A stretch of 64,000 bases of DNA from Chryseobacterium scophthalmum (GTDB taxonomy: Bacteria > Bacteroidota > Bacteroidia > Flavobacteriales > Weeksellaceae), in the NCBI RefSeq assembly GCF_900143185.1, contig NZ_FSRQ01000001.1:124001-188000 (forward strand), given 5' to 3'. Shown in pieces: positions 7,248 through 13,291 of the stretch. The translations under genes and the position numbers were made by a program. The notes beneath the pieces were generated by a model. The model was not told the origin of the DNA and ran no database searches. It was given only the letters and a program-made list of their open reading frames with translations. How positions within the stretch are numbered: position 1 is the first letter of the stretch; each line of letters starts with the position of its first letter.

Positions 7248-8756
7248 ATGAACTTCGACAAACTAATAGACCATTTTAAACTAGACAAACAAGAATTTTA
7301 TTTTCAGTTTAATTCTCATCCCAACTATCCTTCGGCTTTAGCTTTCAGCGACACTCTCAATTTTTTGGGTTTAAAAAATGACGCTTATGAATTGGATAAA
7401 GAGTATTGGGACGAATTACCTGAAGAATTTATGGCTTTGGTCAACAATTCTTTTTCATTAGTAAAAAAGAAAGACAAGGACTTCATCATTTATTCTGATA
7501 AAGTAAAGAATTTAAGTAAAGAAGAACTTTATAAAAATTCGGATGATTTTGTACTTCTTTTTGAGAAAACAGAGAACGTAAAGTCAACATCATTTTTTAA
7601 TTTTAAACCGTTTATTTATGCAATTTTCGGGATAATTCTTCTCTATTCATTCCTGCAGTTCACTTGGTATGAAAGCATTTTCAACTTATTGTCATTACTC
7701 GGAGTTTACATTTCTTTAGAGCTTTTTAATCAGAAATTCGGGCAAGAATCTGTTGTCGTAAGCAATATTTGTGGTGGCGCAGCAAATAGTAATTCTAAAA
7801 GCTCATGTGCAACCATTTTTTCTGCTGATAAAACGAATATTTTAGGATTAAAGCTTTCCGATTTTAGCTTAATTTATTTCTTGGGAATTACCTTTATTGG
7901 TCTTTTATTTCCGGGCGCTCAGTTTGTTTTAAAAATTATTTCACTGATTTCAGTTGTCGTGATTTTATACTCACTTTATGTTCAGACTTTTGTAGAAAAA
8001 TCACTTTGCAGAGTGTGTCTCTTTATCATTTTTATTTTATTGGCGCAGATTGCAGTCAGCTCTTTCTATTTCAGTTTGGTGGTTTCTTTACCGATTGTTT
8101 TTATCAGCGTTATTGCATTTATTTCTTTGTTTTTTACGATTGCTTTTCTAAATAATCTGATGAATCAGAAAGAAGAGCTTAAAAAATCAAATGCGAAAAA
8201 TCTTAGATTCAAAAGAAATTATGATCTGTTCAAAAGAGAACTTTTAGATAAAGAAAAAATTGAATTTTCAGATAAAAACACTTTCTTCTTAGGAAACAAA
8301 GACGCAAAACTTCATATCTCGGTAGTTTCAAATCCTTATTGTGGGTTTTGTAAAGATGCACATAAAATTCTTGAAGATTTAGTAGCAAAATATCCGGATG
8401 AGATTTCTGCACAGATGAGATTTAATTATTCAGGTGAAAGCGCAGGAGAAAAATATACCCAACTTATTTCAGACTTTTTGAGCATTTATAAAAACAAATC
8501 ACAAAAAGATTTTTTAAGCGCGGTTGATACTTGGTTTAAAAATAAAGATGAAGGCGAAATTAATAGAAAATCTGGAACACAAAATCCGGAAGATCTTACA
8601 AATATCATTCAGATGACTTCGGAAAATAGTTCTGCAGGACTTAATTTCACGCCTGTTTTTATCATTAATGGTTATCAGTTTCCGGATAAATATGACCGCG
8701 ATGATATTCATTACTTTATCGGTGAATTGATTGAAGATGAAGATTTTTCAATTTAA
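7248..8756 (+). CDS. VKOR-family disulfide oxidase with degenerate C39-like N-terminus and thioredoxin-like C-terminus
   Basis: A 502-aa three-part protein. Residues 1-110 resemble a C39 peptidase-like domain (SHPNYPSALAFSDTLNFLG) but lack the catalytic Cys near the N-terminus and the NHF-type catalytic His, so it is probably non-proteolytic. Residues 120-305 are a multi-helix VKOR domain with loop cysteines Cys175 and Cys187 and the redox motif CRVC at 254-257. Residues 340-500 are a DsbA/thioredoxin-like domain with CGFC at 365-368. VKOR-thioredoxin fusions make disulfide bonds outside the cytoplasm. It is the first gene of a locus encoding four Cys-rich GG-leader peptides and their exporter, so these peptides are the likely substrates (inference). 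Confidence 0.88.
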   Translation: MNFDKLIDHFKLDKQEFYFQFNSHPNYPSALAFSDTLNFLGLKNDAYELDKEYWDELPEEFMALVNNSFSLVKKKDKDFIIYSDKVKNLSKEELYKNSDDFVLLFEKTENVKSTSFFNFKPFIYAIFGIILLYSFLQFTWYESIFNLLSLLGVYISLELFNQKFGQESVVVSNICGGAANSNSKSSCATIFSADKTNILGLKLSDFSLIYFLGITFIGLLFPGAQFVLKIISLISVVVILYSLYVQTFVEKSLCRVCLFIIFILLAQIAVSSFYFSLVVSLPIVFISVIAFISLFFTIAFLNNLMNQKEELKKSNAKNLRFKRNYDLFKRELLDKEKIEFSDKNTFFLGNKDAKLHISVVSNPYCGFCKDAHKILEDLVAKYPDEISAQMRFNYSGESAGEKYTQLISDFLSIYKNKSQKDFLSAVDTWFKNKDEGEINRKSGTQNPEDLTNIIQMTSENSSAGLNFTPVFIINGYQFPDKYDRDDIHYFIGELIEDEDFSI

Positions 8757-8767
8757 ATTATTTTTGA

Positions 8768-8789
8768 TTAATCAAAATTGATTAATTTT
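8768..8789 (+). terminator. weak hairpin after the oxidase gene
   Basis: TTAATCAA (8768-8775) pairs with TTGATTAA (8778-8785), followed by TTTT. It is all A/T-rich and has a short loop, so it may terminate only weakly or separate the oxidase from the peptide genes. Confidence 0.35.
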
Positions 8790-8799
8790 AAATGAATTA

Positions 8800-8835
8800 A
8801 AAGCGGGATCCGAAAAGCTTAAAAAGAGTAGGAAA
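8800..8835 (+). promoter_or_regulatory. 36-nt leader element, copy 1 (upstream of peptide 1)
   Basis: Matches 9444-9479 at 34 of 36 positions (core ATCCGAAAAGCTTAAA, then AGAGTAGGAAA). It ends 18 nt before the peptide-1 ATG; the second copy ends 15 nt before the peptide-4 ATG. The constant position relative to the start codon suggests a 5'-UTR or promoter element shared by the two transcription units. Function is inferred from position only. Confidence 0.6.
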
Positions 8836-8853
8836 TTACCAAATTCAATTTTT

Positions 8854-8997
8854 ATGAAAAATCTAAAAAAAATCAACCGACAGGAAATGAAAACGATTCA
8901 GGGAGGTATTGTCTGTACAGGTGGACAGCTTTGTCTGATCAACGGAAAATGGAAATGCATGCCATACGACGGATGCGGCGGCGGAAACCAACCTTAA
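8854..8997 (+). CDS. GG-leader Cys-rich secreted peptide 1 (bacteriocin-like)
   Basis: A 47-aa precursor beginning MKNLKKINRQEMKTIQGG, a double-glycine leader of the kind Chryseobacterium attaches to bacteriocin-like peptides. Cleavage after Gly18 would release a 29-aa core with four cysteines (21, 27, 35, 41) and a Gly-rich end (CGGGNQP). An even Cys count and a nearby VKOR oxidase suggest two disulfides. The 36-nt leader element lies just upstream. Peptide 2 follows after 31 bp. No lanthipeptide or other RiPP enzyme is nearby. Bioactivity unknown. Confidence 0.8.
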   Translation: MKNLKKINRQEMKTIQGGIVCTGGQLCLINGKWKCMPYDGCGGGNQP

Positions 8998-9028
8998 TTA
9001 ATCATCAAATCAACCAAACTATTTTATT

Positions 9029-9175
9029 ATGAAAAATTTTAAAAAAGTCTCAAGAAGTCAGATGAAAGACATCAACGGCGGAGCTTCAACTTGTTCTCAA
9101 GCATGTTGCCCTCCTCCGGGAATTAAAAGATGTCCCAATATTTATTGTTTTGCACCATGTCCCGTAGAATCTTAA
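9029..9175 (+). CDS. GG-leader Cys-rich secreted peptide 2
   Basis: A 48-aa precursor with leader MKNFKKVSRSQMKDINGG. The 30-aa core has six cysteines (22, 26, 27, 35, 40, 44) in the order CX3CCX7CX4CX3C and contains CCPPPG. Peptide 3 has almost the same framework, so the two look like diverged duplicates. The fixed Cys pattern with adjacent CC resembles the layout of small disulfide-knotted peptides, but no homology can be claimed. Likely co-transcribed with peptides 1 and 3 (gaps of 31 and 10 bp). Confidence 0.8.
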   Translation: MKNFKKVSRSQMKDINGGASTCSQACCPPPGIKRCPNIYCFAPCPVES

Positions 9176-9185
9176 AAATAATTAT

Positions 9186-9347
9186 ATGAAAAATTTAAAA
9201 AAAATTTCAAGAAATCAAATGAAAAATATTACCGGAAGCGGTGGAATAATCGTAAAACAATGCGTAAATATCTGTTGTCCGCCTCCTGGACAAATTAAAT
9301 GCCCAAAATTGATTTGCCCGGCAGTAGTTTGTCCGCAATATGCATAG
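9186..9347 (+). CDS. GG-leader Cys-rich secreted peptide 3
   Basis: A 53-aa precursor beginning MKNLKKISRNQMKNITGSGG. Compared with its neighbours it has a two-residue insertion before the double glycine, so the likely cleavage site is after Gly20. The core has six cysteines (26, 30, 31, 39, 44, 49) in the order CX3CCX7CX4CX4C and the CCPPPG motif shared with peptide 2. It ends the first peptide transcription unit; a terminator follows at 9357-9392. Confidence 0.8.
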   Translation: MKNLKKISRNQMKNITGSGGIIVKQCVNICCPPPGQIKCPKLICPAVVCPQYA

Positions 9348-9356
9348 AAATTTTGT

Positions 9357-9392
9357 ATTATTCGATGAGATTTAAAAAATCGAATAATTTTT
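9357..9392 (+). terminator. terminator after peptides 1-3
   Basis: A 10-bp stem, ATTATTCGAT (9357-9366) with ATCGAATAAT (9379-9388), followed by a T-run to 9392. It separates peptides 1-3 from peptide 4. Confidence 0.7.
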
Positions 9393-9443
9393 ATTAGATA
9401 TAATATTTGTATTTTAAAAAAATCCCTAAATTGGGATAAAAAT

Positions 9444-9479
9444 AAAGCGGCATCCGAAAAGCTTAAATAGAGTAGGAAA
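9444..9479 (+). promoter_or_regulatory. 36-nt leader element, copy 2 (upstream of peptide 4)
   Basis: Differs from copy 1 (8800-8835) at two positions: C for G at 9451 and T for A at 9468. It lies after the terminator of peptides 1-3 and 15 nt ahead of the peptide-4 start, so it probably marks a separate promoter or 5' UTR. Confidence 0.6.
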
Positions 9480-9494
9480 CCAAACATTATATTT

Positions 9495-9674
9495 ATGAAA
9501 AACTTAAAAAAACTTTCAAGAGAAAATCTTAAAACTGTACAGGGAGGAATTACTCTTGAATGTGCACAAGGGCAAGCTGCATCTGCAAAGTGCTACAACA
9601 CAAACACAGAATGCGTAAATGATCCTAATTCAGGTGGTTTTTGCATTCGTTATTGCAATAAGTCTTGCTACTAA
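9495..9674 (+). CDS. GG-leader Cys-rich secreted peptide 4
   Basis: A 59-aa precursor with leader MKNLKKLSRENLKTVQGG. The 41-aa core has six cysteines (23, 33, 40, 50, 54, 58), a different spacing from peptides 2 and 3, and is rich in Asn, Gly and Ser. It has its own copy of the 36-nt leader element and its own terminator (9702-9732), so it is probably transcribed separately. Likely exported and cleaved by the C39 ABC transporter that follows. Confidence 0.8.
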   Translation: MKNLKKLSRENLKTVQGGITLECAQGQAASAKCYNTNTECVNDPNSGGFCIRYCNKSCY

Positions 9675-9701
9675 AGTCTAAAAGCTTATAAATTAGAAGA
9701 A

Positions 9702-9732
9702 AAATTGTCGTCTCTGAGGCGACAATTTGTTT
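9702..9732 (+). terminator. terminator after peptide 4
   Basis: AAATTGTCGTC (9702-9712) pairs with GGCGACAATTT (9718-9728) around a TCTGA loop, followed by GTTTT. Because it lies only 21 bp before the exporter start, read-through could also set exporter level. Confidence 0.75.
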
Positions 9733-9752
9733 TAAATAATTTGAATTAAATT

Positions 9753-11948
9753 TTGAAAAAAAAATTCCCCAATTACATACAACCCGATTCCAAAGATTGT
9801 GGCCCCACCTGTCTCAGAATTGTCAGCAAACATTACGGAAAAAGTATTTCCCTGCAACAGATTCGTAACCTTTCAGAAACAACCCGAGAAGGAAGCAGCT
9901 TACTTGGTTTAAGTGATGCTGCCGAAGATTTGGGCTTCCGTTCTTTGGGAGTTCAGGTTGATTTTAATACATTAGCTGAAGAAGTTCCTTTCCCATGCAT
10001 CGTACACTGGAACAAAAATCACTTTGTGGTTGTCTATAAAATTGATAAAAATAATTTGGTGTATATCTCAGATCCAAGTTACGGACTGATTACCTATTCC
10101 AGAGAAGAATTTATCAAGCGATGGATTGGCGAAAATGCGAATGAAAATACAGAGGAAGGAATTGCTTTGATTCTGGAAACTACACCAGCATTTTTCCAAA
10201 CCGAATTTGACGATCAGGAAAGTAAAGCCAGTTTTTCTTTTTTATCTAAATATCTACTAAAATATAAATCGCTTATTGTTCAGTTGGCAGTAGGATTATT
10301 AGCAGGAAGTTTATTGTCGCTTATTTTACCTTTTCTTACTCAAAGTATTGTGGATGTGGGAATTCAGAATCAGGATTTGAACTTTATTTATCTGGTTCTT
10401 CTCGCTCAGGTAATGCTTTTTCTGGGTAGAATGGGAATTGAGGTTATCCGAAGCTGGATTTTGCTTCACCTTTCAACAAGAATCAACATTTCAATTATCT
10501 CCGATTTCTTTATTAAATTGATGAAACTTCCCATCAGTTTCTTTGATACAAGAATGACCGGAGATATTATGCAGAGAATTAACGACCATCACAGAATCGA
10601 ACAACTTCTGACCAATTCTTCTCTAAATACATTATTCTCATTAGTCAATCTGATTATTTTCAGTATCGTATTGCTGTTTTATGATTATCGTCTGTTTATC
10701 GTTTACATTGTTGGAGCGGCTTTATACATTGGATGGATTACGTTTTTCCTAAACAAAAGAAAAGAGCTTGATTATAAAAGATTTTCACAGGTTTCGCAGG
10801 AACAGAGTAAGGTAATTGAACTGATCAACGGAATGCAGGAAATAAAAATGCATAACGCTGAAAAGCAAAAACGCTGGGATTGGGAATTCTTACAGGTAAA
10901 ACTTTTTAAACTAAAAATAAAATCGCTGTCATTAGAGCAATGGCAATCGGTTGGAGGAAATTTCATCAACCAAATGAAAGATATTTTGGTAAGTTTTCTT
11001 TCTGCTAAATTGGTTCTGGAAGGAAATCTTACTTTAGGGATGATGCTTTCTGTGCAATACATTATCGGACAGTTGAATAGTCCACTATTACAATTGATCG
11101 ATTTTGTAAAACAAACTCAGGATGCCAAAATTTCTTTAGAAAGACTACGAGAAATTCATGATAAAGAAGATGAGGAAAGCAAAGACGATCAATATGCCAC
11201 AGAAATTCCGGATAAAGATATAGAAATCAATAATATGTCTTTCAGATACATCGGTTCGGATGTTCCGGTTTTTGAAAATTTAAACTTAAATATTCCTCAC
11301 CAAAAAACAACGGCAATTGTTGGAGCCAGTGGAAGCGGGAAAACGACATTGCTGAAATTACTAATGAAGTTTTATGAACCTAACGAAGGGGAAATTAAAA
11401 TTGGAAATACCCAAATGAAAAACATCTCACCAAGATTCTGGAGAGATCAGTGTGGCGTGGTAATGCAGGAAGGCTACGTTTTTAATGATACGATTGCTAA
11501 TAATATTGCAGTAGGAGAAGATTATGTAGATAAATCAAAACTAAGAAAAGCTGTAGAAATCGCCAATATTAAAGAATTTATAGAAGATTTACCTTTAAGT
11601 TATAACACAAAAATAGGAAATGAAGGAGTCGGTGTGAGTGGCGGACAAAAACAAAGACTTTTCATCGCAAGAGCGGTTTACAAATCTCCTGAATATATTT
11701 TCTTTGATGAAGCAACTTCTGCTTTAGATGCCAATAATGAAAAGGTAATTATGGAAAATCTGGAACAGTTTTTCAAAGGTAAAACCGCCATTGTGATTGC
11801 TCACAGATTATCAACCGTAAAACATGCTGATAAAATTATTGTTCTCGATAAAGGAAAAGTTGTAGAAGAAGGAAACCATGCGGAATTGGTAGCTTTAAAA
11901 GGAGAATATTACAGACTTGTTAAAAATCAACTGGAATTAGGTAATTGA
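9753..11948 (+). CDS. C39 peptidase-containing ABC exporter for double-glycine peptides
   Basis: A 731-aa bacteriocin-type exporter that would cut leaders after GG and secrete the cores. The N-terminal C39 domain keeps the catalytic Cys16 (KDCGPTC), His90 (NHFVVVY) and Asp107. The membrane domain covers about residues 160-450. The ATPase has Walker A GASGSGKTT near 524, signature VSGGQKQR near 627 and Walker B with DEATSALD near 650. The start codon is TTG: a stop lies just upstream in frame and the catalytic Cys lies before any later start, so no other start fits. The HlyD gene follows after 38 bp. Confidence 0.95.
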   Translation: MKKKFPNYIQPDSKDCGPTCLRIVSKHYGKSISLQQIRNLSETTREGSSLLGLSDAAEDLGFRSLGVQVDFNTLAEEVPFPCIVHWNKNHFVVVYKIDKNNLVYISDPSYGLITYSREEFIKRWIGENANENTEEGIALILETTPAFFQTEFDDQESKASFSFLSKYLLKYKSLIVQLAVGLLAGSLLSLILPFLTQSIVDVGIQNQDLNFIYLVLLAQVMLFLGRMGIEVIRSWILLHLSTRINISIISDFFIKLMKLPISFFDTRMTGDIMQRINDHHRIEQLLTNSSLNTLFSLVNLIIFSIVLLFYDYRLFIVYIVGAALYIGWITFFLNKRKELDYKRFSQVSQEQSKVIELINGMQEIKMHNAEKQKRWDWEFLQVKLFKLKIKSLSLEQWQSVGGNFINQMKDILVSFLSAKLVLEGNLTLGMMLSVQYIIGQLNSPLLQLIDFVKQTQDAKISLERLREIHDKEDEESKDDQYATEIPDKDIEINNMSFRYIGSDVPVFENLNLNIPHQKTTAIVGASGSGKTTLLKLLMKFYEPNEGEIKIGNTQMKNISPRFWRDQCGVVMQEGYVFNDTIANNIAVGEDYVDKSKLRKAVEIANIKEFIEDLPLSYNTKIGNEGVGVSGGQKQRLFIARAVYKSPEYIFFDEATSALDANNEKVIMENLEQFFKGKTAIVIAHRLSTVKHADKIIVLDKGKVVEEGNHAELVALKGEYYRLVKNQLELGN

Positions 11949-11986
11949 TTTTACTTTGACAAAGTTTCAAAATAAAAACATAAAAT

Positions 11987-13291
11987 TTGGAAACACATAA
12001 AGACATTTTAGACAATATAGAACTTCGCTCAGAAAGCGTTCAGGATATACTCACAGAACCACCACATTGGATGTTCCGATGGGGAAATACGATTATATTT
12101 ATTATTCTGCTGCTTATTCTTGCAATGAGTTACATCATCAAATATCCGGAATTTGTTCCTGCTCCTATTGTAGTGACATCGCAAAATCCACCGGAGAAAA
12201 TTGAAGCAAGAAGCAGTTCAAAAATCGAAAAAATATTTATTAAAGATCATCAAAAAGTAAAAAAAGGTGATGTAATGATGGTTTTGCAGTCTACAGCAAA
12301 TTATCAGGATGTTTTAAAGCTTAAAAAACTCGTAGATTCTATCGCTTCAGATCAGTTGCTTTCTTTCCCTGTTAAAGAAGCTTCTCATTTCAAATTGGGT
12401 GAACTTCAGGGCGATTACAATAGTTTTGCAAAAGCTTTTCAGGATGAGAGTTTATTTACTCGTTTACAACCCTATGCTCCAGAAAACATTGCGACTAACC
12501 TTAGTATATCTGAATCCAGAAGCAGAATTGCTACTTTAAAACAACAAAAAAATCTTGAACTTGCAAAGGCTGAACTTTCACGTAAAAGCTATCAAAGATC
12601 ACAGGAATTATTTAATCAGGGCGTGATTGCTGCAGTAGAGCTAGAAAATGAAAAAATAAAATATCTTCAGGCGCAACAAAACTTAGAAAACTTAAATATT
12701 TCTCTTTCTCAATTGCAGGAAAGCATTTCCAATTTCAATAAAACAAAAAGCGGAACAGCGATCAATACAGAAAAAGATAAAATCACGTATTCATCTCAAA
12801 CCCTTCAGTTATTTGAGCAACTTAGAAAATCTTTAAAACAGTGGGAACAGAGCTATCTCATTATTTCTTCAACTGATGGAATGGCAAGTTTTCAACAATT
12901 TTATGGTGAAAATCAGTTTGTAAAAGCAGGTGATCCTATACTTTCTATTTTACCGGATCATACGGAGCAAATAGTTGGAAGAATGTCTGTACCTACAGCC
13001 AATTCAGGGAAAATTATTCCGGGTGAAAAGGTATTGATTAAATTAGATAATTACCGTTTTCAGGAATATGGAATCATCGAAGGAAAAGTTCAGAATATTT
13101 CATTAATTCCTGATGAAAAAGGAAATTATTATGTAGATGTTGTTCTTCCTAAAGGTTTAAAAACTTCCTACAATAAAACATTGAAATTTGATAAAGAACT
13201 GAGAGGAAATGCCGAAATCGTAACACAAGATCTACGATTGATCGAAAGGTTTTTCTATCAGATTAGAAAACTATTAGGCTATCAATCCTAA
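11987..13291 (+). CDS. HlyD-family membrane-fusion protein of the peptide exporter
   Basis: A 434-aa periplasmic adaptor. It has one N-terminal transmembrane helix at about 32-50, a lipoyl/biotinyl-like hairpin half (KIEKIFIKDHQKVKKGD), a long coiled coil at about 170-260 and a C-terminal beta-barrel region. It would link the inner-membrane exporter to an outer-membrane TolC protein; none is encoded in this locus, so one must come from elsewhere. Like the exporter it starts with TTG (METHKD), so two successive genes share this rare start codon. A hairpin at 13343-13369 follows. Confidence 0.9.
   Translation: METHKDILDNIELRSESVQDILTEPPHWMFRWGNTIIFIILLLILAMSYIIKYPEFVPAPIVVTSQNPPEKIEARSSSKIEKIFIKDHQKVKKGDVMMVLQSTANYQDVLKLKKLVDSIASDQLLSFPVKEASHFKLGELQGDYNSFAKAFQDESLFTRLQPYAPENIATNLSISESRSRIATLKQQKNLELAKAELSRKSYQRSQELFNQGVIAAVELENEKIKYLQAQQNLENLNISLSQLQESISNFNKTKSGTAINTEKDKITYSSQTLQLFEQLRKSLKQWEQSYLIISSTDGMASFQQFYGENQFVKAGDPILSILPDHTEQIVGRMSVPTANSGKIIPGEKVLIKLDNYRFQEYGIIEGKVQNISLIPDEKGNYYVDVVLPKGLKTSYNKTLKFDKELRGNAEIVTQDLRLIERFFYQIRKLLGYQS

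Follow-up and report, generated by a model that had tools for sequence, protein, structure and literature searches.

A 64,000-nucleotide stretch of the Chryseobacterium scophthalmum genome (contig NZ_FSRQ01000001.1, positions 124,001 to 188,000 of the forward strand; hereafter "the window", to which all coordinates refer) contains, at 7248-13291, a locus in which the gene for a membrane disulfide oxidase is followed by four genes for cysteine-rich leader peptides, a C39 peptidase-containing ATP-binding cassette (ABC) exporter and an HlyD-family adaptor. This locus is confirmed, with its open reading frames (ORFs) in that order at the positions given below, and comparative sequence analysis argues that it represents a real, conserved and dedicated pathway for disulfide-type peptides, apparently with an unusual mechanism. 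The best explanation of the evidence as a whole, which we favour with moderate confidence, is that a disulfide-peptide pathway has its hub at this locus and that precursors would be docked by their leaders and oxidized in the cytosol before export. In its most specific form, to which we give an even chance, an inverted VKOR combined with a dead C39 leader-docking domain would act as a leader-guided cytosolic disulfide maturase for precursors encoded throughout the genome, many of them behind the RNA element DUF805b.

The oxidase (7248..8756, on the + strand like all features described here) comprises 502 amino acids and is predicted to consist of a degenerate C39 peptidase-like domain devoid of cysteines (residues 1-116; 7248..7595), an extra transmembrane helix (residues 120-137; 7605..7658), a VKOR core (about residues 139-300; 7662..8147) and a thioredoxin/DsbA-type domain (residues 335-498; 8250..8741) with the motif C365-G-F-C368. 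Pfam detects VKOR (E=4.6e-9) and Thioredoxin_4 (E=1.6e-9), the two domains named in a preliminary description of this DNA, which called the protein a VKOR-thioredoxin oxidase; that label was right about both domains and missed the third, N-terminal one, for which the Pfam C39 match is below the cut-off (E 0.073) and whose detection needed profile-profile and fold comparison. Both profile-profile and predicted-fold matches point to the C39 peptidase fold, and the N-terminal domain is almost certainly C39-like. It lacks any cysteine in 69 of 83 homologues, and in the remaining 14 the cysteines lie elsewhere, as judged by eye, so the catalytic cysteine has been lost; from these sequence features, the degenerate fold is probably a leader-docking domain. 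All six redox cysteines of the oxidase, namely the VKOR loop pair C175/C187, the VKOR motif C254-x-x-C257 and the thioredoxin CXXC, are invariant in two alignments, one of 19 and the other of 60 proteins. The mixture of C39, VKOR and thioredoxin domains is already visible in the precomputed Pfam annotation of listed distant relatives. The closest source-named oxidases, 89-90% identical, come from Chryseobacterium sp. 2TAF14 (P0003) and C. indoltheticum (P0007). In one relative (L205, genome G648) the C39-like domain still reads GHFVVL...TDPG, so that it may have kept His and Asp while losing the cysteine, a possible intermediate of C39 decay. On a Parabacteroides distasonis plasmid (L227, 6391-7936) the C39-like part and the VKOR-thioredoxin part are encoded by separate genes that overlap in different reading frames, due to either a split or a frameshift, with a GG-type six-cysteine peptide nearby.

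The AlphaFold2 model and hydropathy predict six transmembrane helices for the oxidase, against five in canonical VKOR. The Synechococcus VKOR entries (3KP9, 4NV5) align from their residue 17 to the window's oxidase from residue 138/139 onward, and since this alignment starts at residue 139, the helix at 120-137 is the additional one. Two helices thus precede the cysteine loop, and therefore the N-terminal domain, both cysteine pairs and the thioredoxin domain share one side of the membrane. The charge bias of this catalytic side was assessed in 83 oxidase homologues drawn from three alignments. With segments defined by alignment, lysine plus arginine on the catalytic side exceed those on the other side in 83/83 homologues, with the smallest difference being 12; the mean counts are 3.1, 4.9, 2.3 and 8.6 for the catalytic-side segments versus 0.07, 0.43 and 0.30 for the other three. 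A blind transmembrane-helix caller, which is crude (25 of 83 parses deviate from two pre-loop helices and six in total), returned the same sign for all 58 cleanly parsed homologues and for 76/83 overall. Ten canonical VKORs, nine from actinobacterial plasmids and one from Bacteroidia, were run as controls through the same caller; they exhibit five helices and, in nine cases, the opposite bias, the deviating control (L239) being anchored on an early cysteine. Because lysine and arginine are concentrated on the catalytic side, that side is probably the cytosol, and it appears likely that the oxidase is inverted relative to canonical VKOR and that catalysis takes place in the cytosol.

In the mechanism that we propose, the C39-like domain would grip the leader of the precursor in the manner of C39 peptidases and present the core to the thioredoxin CXXC, which would in turn be re-oxidized through the VKOR cysteine pairs and membrane quinone. 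Disulfides would thereby form in the cytosol with the leader still attached, after which the exporter's own C39 domain would cut the leader and the oxidized peptide would be exported; a single locus would serve numerous precursor genes dispersed across the genome. Bacterial disulfide formation normally takes place outside the cytosol and is carried out by broad-range enzymes. If the proposal is true, here is an enzyme that selects substrates by their leader, acts before export and serves as one hub for many precursors, and disulfide formation would join the leader-directed, pre-export peptide modifications of Bacteroidota. The timing is perhaps the opposite of what one would expect from an oxidase of secreted peptides. 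The proposal would also explain the puzzling C39/VKOR/thioredoxin domain order, reveal that a common environmental genus holds a large and so far unstudied repertoire of probable disulfide peptides, offer a simple way to obtain disulfide-rich peptides and place DUF805b, an RNA motif without known role, in a functional context.

Several observations weigh against cytosolic, leader-docked oxidation. The best fold matches of the thioredoxin domain are periplasmic proteins of the ScsC/DsbA type, and the predicted template modelling score of 0.53 for the oxidase means that the packing of its domains is not determined by the model. Precomputed Pfam annotation assigns C39 to none of 120 listed close relatives and to 11 of 120 listed distant ones, and for leader binding by an oxidase-borne C39-like domain no direct precedent was found; within the open-licence literature searched there was likewise no paper describing C39 fused to VKOR, or VKOR in association with GG-leader peptides. 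When the catalytic side is reduced to the short pre-CXXC loop alone, 57 of 83 homologues favour the inverted orientation, 21 tie and 5 oppose it, and with the blind caller seven of the 83 show equal or opposite sign; in our judgement these seven, like the other deviating parses, are mis-parses, because the alignment gives 83/83, yet they are still counted in the figures above. Besides, positive-inside is a rule that is weaker for long loops, and the cytosol is generally reducing. Work attributed to Hibender and colleagues in 2017 reportedly found that the VKOR of Aeropyrum pernix promotes disulfide formation in two compartments, and a VKOR may thus be functional in either orientation; that enzyme is archaeal and is not known to have a C39-like domain.

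The most serious alternative is periplasmic oxidation, in which the VKOR would have the canonical orientation, the peptides would be oxidized after export, and the C39-like domain would be periplasmic or would dock the exporter or the adaptor. Canonical VKOR-thioredoxin enzymes act outside the cytosol, and the likeness of the thioredoxin domain to ScsC/DsbA and the tight linkage to exporter and HlyD genes fit this scheme as well. However, it would place the lysine/arginine-rich loops outside and the poor ones inside, contrary to the positive-inside rule in all 83 homologues and at odds with nine of the ten controls; it needs an N-terminal tail of 118 residues to be translocated without a signal peptide, or else a first helix that is not membrane-spanning; and a leader-binding domain in the periplasm would meet no leader if the C39 domain of the exporter cuts in the cytosol. 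We therefore regard periplasmic oxidation as unlikely, though it deserves more weight than the alternatives considered below.

The four precursors of the proposed cytosolic pathway are encoded at 8854..8997 (peptide 1, 47 amino acids, core with four cysteines), 9029..9175 (peptide 2, 48 amino acids), 9186..9347 (peptide 3, 53 amino acids) and 9495..9674 (peptide 4, 59 amino acids), the last three having cores with six cysteines. They carry an 18-residue C39-type leader, which in peptide 3 ends with a GS-type cleavage site rather than plain GG, and all exceed the cut-off of 23.5 for the NCBIfam family NF047798 (leader_Chryseo), scoring 39.5, 37.2, 36.7 and 42.1 bits, respectively. In all four the positions -4, -7 and -12 are occupied by aliphatic residues or Met, as judged by eye; in LahT these positions of the leader sit in the C39 groove (PMC6363468). 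The same preference is found in 159/159 distinct leaders of the family, a number that reflects the search pattern, in which it was required.

A sample of 100 family loci (20 chosen and 80 named ones, with some genomes represented more than once) yielded 202 peptides from 83 loci, reduced to 76 non-redundant cores. Among them 28 have four cysteines, one has five, 44 have six and three have seven, i.e. 72/76 are even, and in the same cores fourteen other residues are even in just 31-57% of cases. In a second set, which combines the window's four cores with others from the source genome and further genomes, an even number of cysteines is found in 35 of 36, as it is in 9 of 10 non-redundant cores from distant regions, where peptides are few and the leader pattern fits mainly Weeksellaceae. 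Plasmid loci contributed eight further leader-type peptides, all even when counted by eye with ORFs not of the leader type excluded, and the source genome has eight more leader matches over the cut-off away from the locus, of which the six that were read are all even. Such parity is what pairing of cysteines into disulfides would predict. Alternatively, the cysteines could be metal ligands or be otherwise modified, with the oxidase only protecting or recycling thiols: small cysteine-rich peptides can bind metals, one locus (L070) has ATP-grasp-like and SPASM-like genes, identified by eye, and two glycosyltransferase genes occur in a locus of Spirosoma. Against this stand the 72 even cores, all with four or six cysteines, and the scarcity of other genes between the oxidase and HlyD, as only 12 additional ORFs of at least 90 amino acids were found there in 75 loci, confined to seven of them, with maturase-like ones only in L070; we consider such a role improbable. 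As to the activity of the peptides, an antibacterial one is a first guess from the leader class and the bacteroidetocin precedent discussed below.

The leader peptides are followed by the exporter, a protein of 731 amino acids of the PCAT type (9753..11948; Peptidase_C39 E=2.7e-35, plus the ABC domain), and by the HlyD-family periplasmic adaptor of 434 amino acids (11987..13291; family scan). The preliminary description had listed the four peptides with 4, 6, 6 and 6 cysteines together with both transport genes, which the ORFs, family scans and NF047798 scores bear out, and had remarked on the lack of maturation enzymes; indeed, in the interval from oxidase to HlyD the ORFs and family scans revealed no lanthipeptide, radical-SAM, YcaO or MNIO gene. 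The arrangement is more than chance: among the best 80 of 130 relatives found (79 titled Chryseobacterium and one Weeksellaceae bacterium), oxidase, exporter and HlyD stand together on the same strand in 75 of the 80 named loci. Four of the five misses lie near contig ends with less than 5 kb of sequence remaining, and the fifth, L068 from a metagenome-assembled genome, has room. The exporter is present in 20/20 chosen family regions (in pieces in L062 and cut by the region end in L061) and in 16/20 chosen distant regions from Bacteroidia (L197 is cut), and among the plasmid records with a relative, whose gene tables are incomplete, exporter and HlyD adjoin it in 4/6.

The distribution of the system was studied in 296 genomes of the family, with a threshold of E <= 1e-3 for an oxidase match, fragments included, and E <= 1e-4 for the leader family. 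An oxidase match was found in 160/296 genomes, and in 139/149 within the genus, while the leader family occurs in 150/296, all of which have an oxidase match, and in 0/136 of the genomes that have none. Many genomes reach 29 leader genes, which is the number of candidates scored, and the true counts may be higher; the system is genome-wide, with one hub locus and many scattered precursor genes. In a subset of the genus, leaders are present in 10/10 oxidase-positive versus 0/10 oxidase-negative genomes (Fisher p 1.1e-5), and an exporter with at least 91% identity in 10/10 versus 1/10 (Fisher p 1.2e-4), both values being uncorrected for relatedness; six further oxidase-negative genomes have exporters at about 45-51% only.

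Some genomes depart from this pattern and speak against a strict coupling. Ten of the 160 genomes with an oxidase match have no leader (in G002, G022 and G027 the match is a fragment), the leader-positive G126 (two leaders) and G155 (five leaders) carry a broken oxidase, G194 with a single leader has a truncated match, and G207 encodes a 95% identical exporter (G207:C1:1586378-1588588) without oxidase match or leaders. Upon re-examination of 14 doubtful oxidase genomes, nine turned out to have a near full-length match, G155 one in two overlapping pieces, and G126, G022, G002 and G027 fragments. The broken copies, L336 in G126 and G155:C1:292224-293697, occur in genomes that have retained leader genes, a situation possibly due to decay of the system. 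In the Bacteroidia at large, a VKOR match occurs in 29/395 genomes and a match to the alignment of this oxidase in 25/395, one of the latter (G432) being a stand-alone VKOR of 145 amino acids.

The oxidase is thus very probably dedicated to the leader-peptide system, and the preliminary view of a disulfide-type peptide system with its own oxidase agrees with the linkage (75/80), the co-occurrence (150/150) and the cysteine parity (72/76). Unlinked oxidase and peptide genes had been put forward as an argument against that view; many peptide genes do lie far from the oxidase, so physical proximity does not hold in general, yet the association within the same genome does, since none of the 136 oxidase-negative genomes has a leader. 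A general housekeeping oxidase that merely adjoins peptide genes, an idea to which the single VKOR and the lack of DsbB in the source genome (both at E <= 1e-3) could lend some appeal, is made very improbable by the co-occurrence table, with the oxidase missing from 136 of 296 family genomes and leaders from every one of these, by the linkage to exporter and HlyD in the named loci, by the C39-like domain itself and by plasmid relatives that travel with exporter genes in 4/6 records.

The coupling of an oxidase to leader peptides, singled out in the preliminary description as deserving study, is already known in kind from the bacteroidetocins (class IIf). In these (Coyne et al. 2019; PMC6671954), a thiol oxidoreductase adjoins a C39 exporter and a gene for a GG-leader peptide with four cysteines; the toxin is attenuated when the oxidoreductase is deleted, and reduced peptides migrate differently. 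A later survey terms these peptides unmodified (PMC10352776). The bacteroidetocins share with our system the occurrence in Bacteroidota, the GG leader, the four-cysteine core, the C39 ABC exporter and the lack of an obvious immunity gene, together with a thiol oxidoreductase in the region, which is matched by type only (VKOR plus thioredoxin). They differ in that a separate five-transmembrane protein and the thiol oxidoreductase flank a single peptide gene, whereas the window has one C39-like/VKOR/thioredoxin protein, with no separate ORF for a five-transmembrane protein in the ORF list for 7248-13291, an HlyD adaptor and more than one peptide per locus, with leader genes numbering up to at least 29 in a genome.

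Other systems resemble the locus in part. Glycocins of the sublancin type combine a GG-leader cysteine peptide and a C39 exporter with dedicated thiol oxidases (the Bdb oxidoreductases), but they are Gram-positive, are oxidized outside the cell and employ a glycosyltransferase. Compared to the Synechococcus VKOR-thioredoxin enzyme, the window's oxidase adds the N-terminal C39-like domain and a predicted transmembrane helix; compared to the canonical VKOR controls, it has the opposite charge bias and is hence predicted to be inverted; and unlike the C39-like domain (CLD) of HlyB-type transporters and the peptidase domains of LahT, PCAT1 and ComA, its C39-like domain resides on an oxidase rather than on an exporter. 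The family NF047798, a "bacteriocin-like protein", includes the window's peptides, and its description names neither an oxidase nor disulfides. What is new, within the open-licence literature searched, is the C39-like domain of the oxidase, its predicted inversion, the genome-wide set of precursors and the RNA element.

Two copies of this element, DUF805b (RF02914), escaped the preliminary description; they lie upstream of peptide 1 (8800..8834; 50.0 bits, gathering 35.6) and of peptide 4 (9444..9478; 49.7 bits). A simple pattern for it occurs 122 times in 73 of the 100 family loci, and zero times in a control with reversed halves; a leader-peptide ATG lies 18-27 nucleotides downstream in 110 of the 122 cases, another small ORF in nine and none in three. 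Counted from the other side, the core 9-mer is located at most 100 nucleotides upstream of 89/202 peptide genes. In the source genome, five of seven sites over the cut-off precede leader peptides and one precedes a secreted-looking protein of 493 amino acids (PKD-type by eye); a match below the cut-off stands before a 90-residue ORF that is not a leader peptide (the last two cases being in L251 and L254). As DUF805b also precedes genes other than those of leaders, it is not peptide-specific; no paper on the DUF805 RNA was found in the open-licence literature searched. Between the peptides and the exporter there is a terminator-like hairpin (9702..9728) of 12 pairs followed by a T-rich tail, which is weak evidence, as six terminator-like sites were found versus 3.2 +/- 1.8 in shuffled sequences; a possible function would be attenuation yielding more peptide than exporter mRNA.

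Phage carriage of the system was considered and rejected, since none of 31 pattern stretches in viral contigs, where close relatives only were detectable, is a relative. Genes beyond the common set were noticed in a few loci. The ATP-grasp-like and SPASM-like genes of L070 (14493-16687, in one Chryseobacterium) are part of the operon and form the sole maturase-like pair observed, so that a single exporter may serve two kinds of peptide chemistry there. On two Emticicia plasmids (L228 and L235), genes for TlpA-family reductases are interspersed among oxidase, peptides and exporter, their products being candidates for an isomerase or a counterpart. On the Spirosoma plasmid (L233), the two glycosyltransferase genes are located between the oxidase and the exporter, an arrangement that recalls the glycocins.

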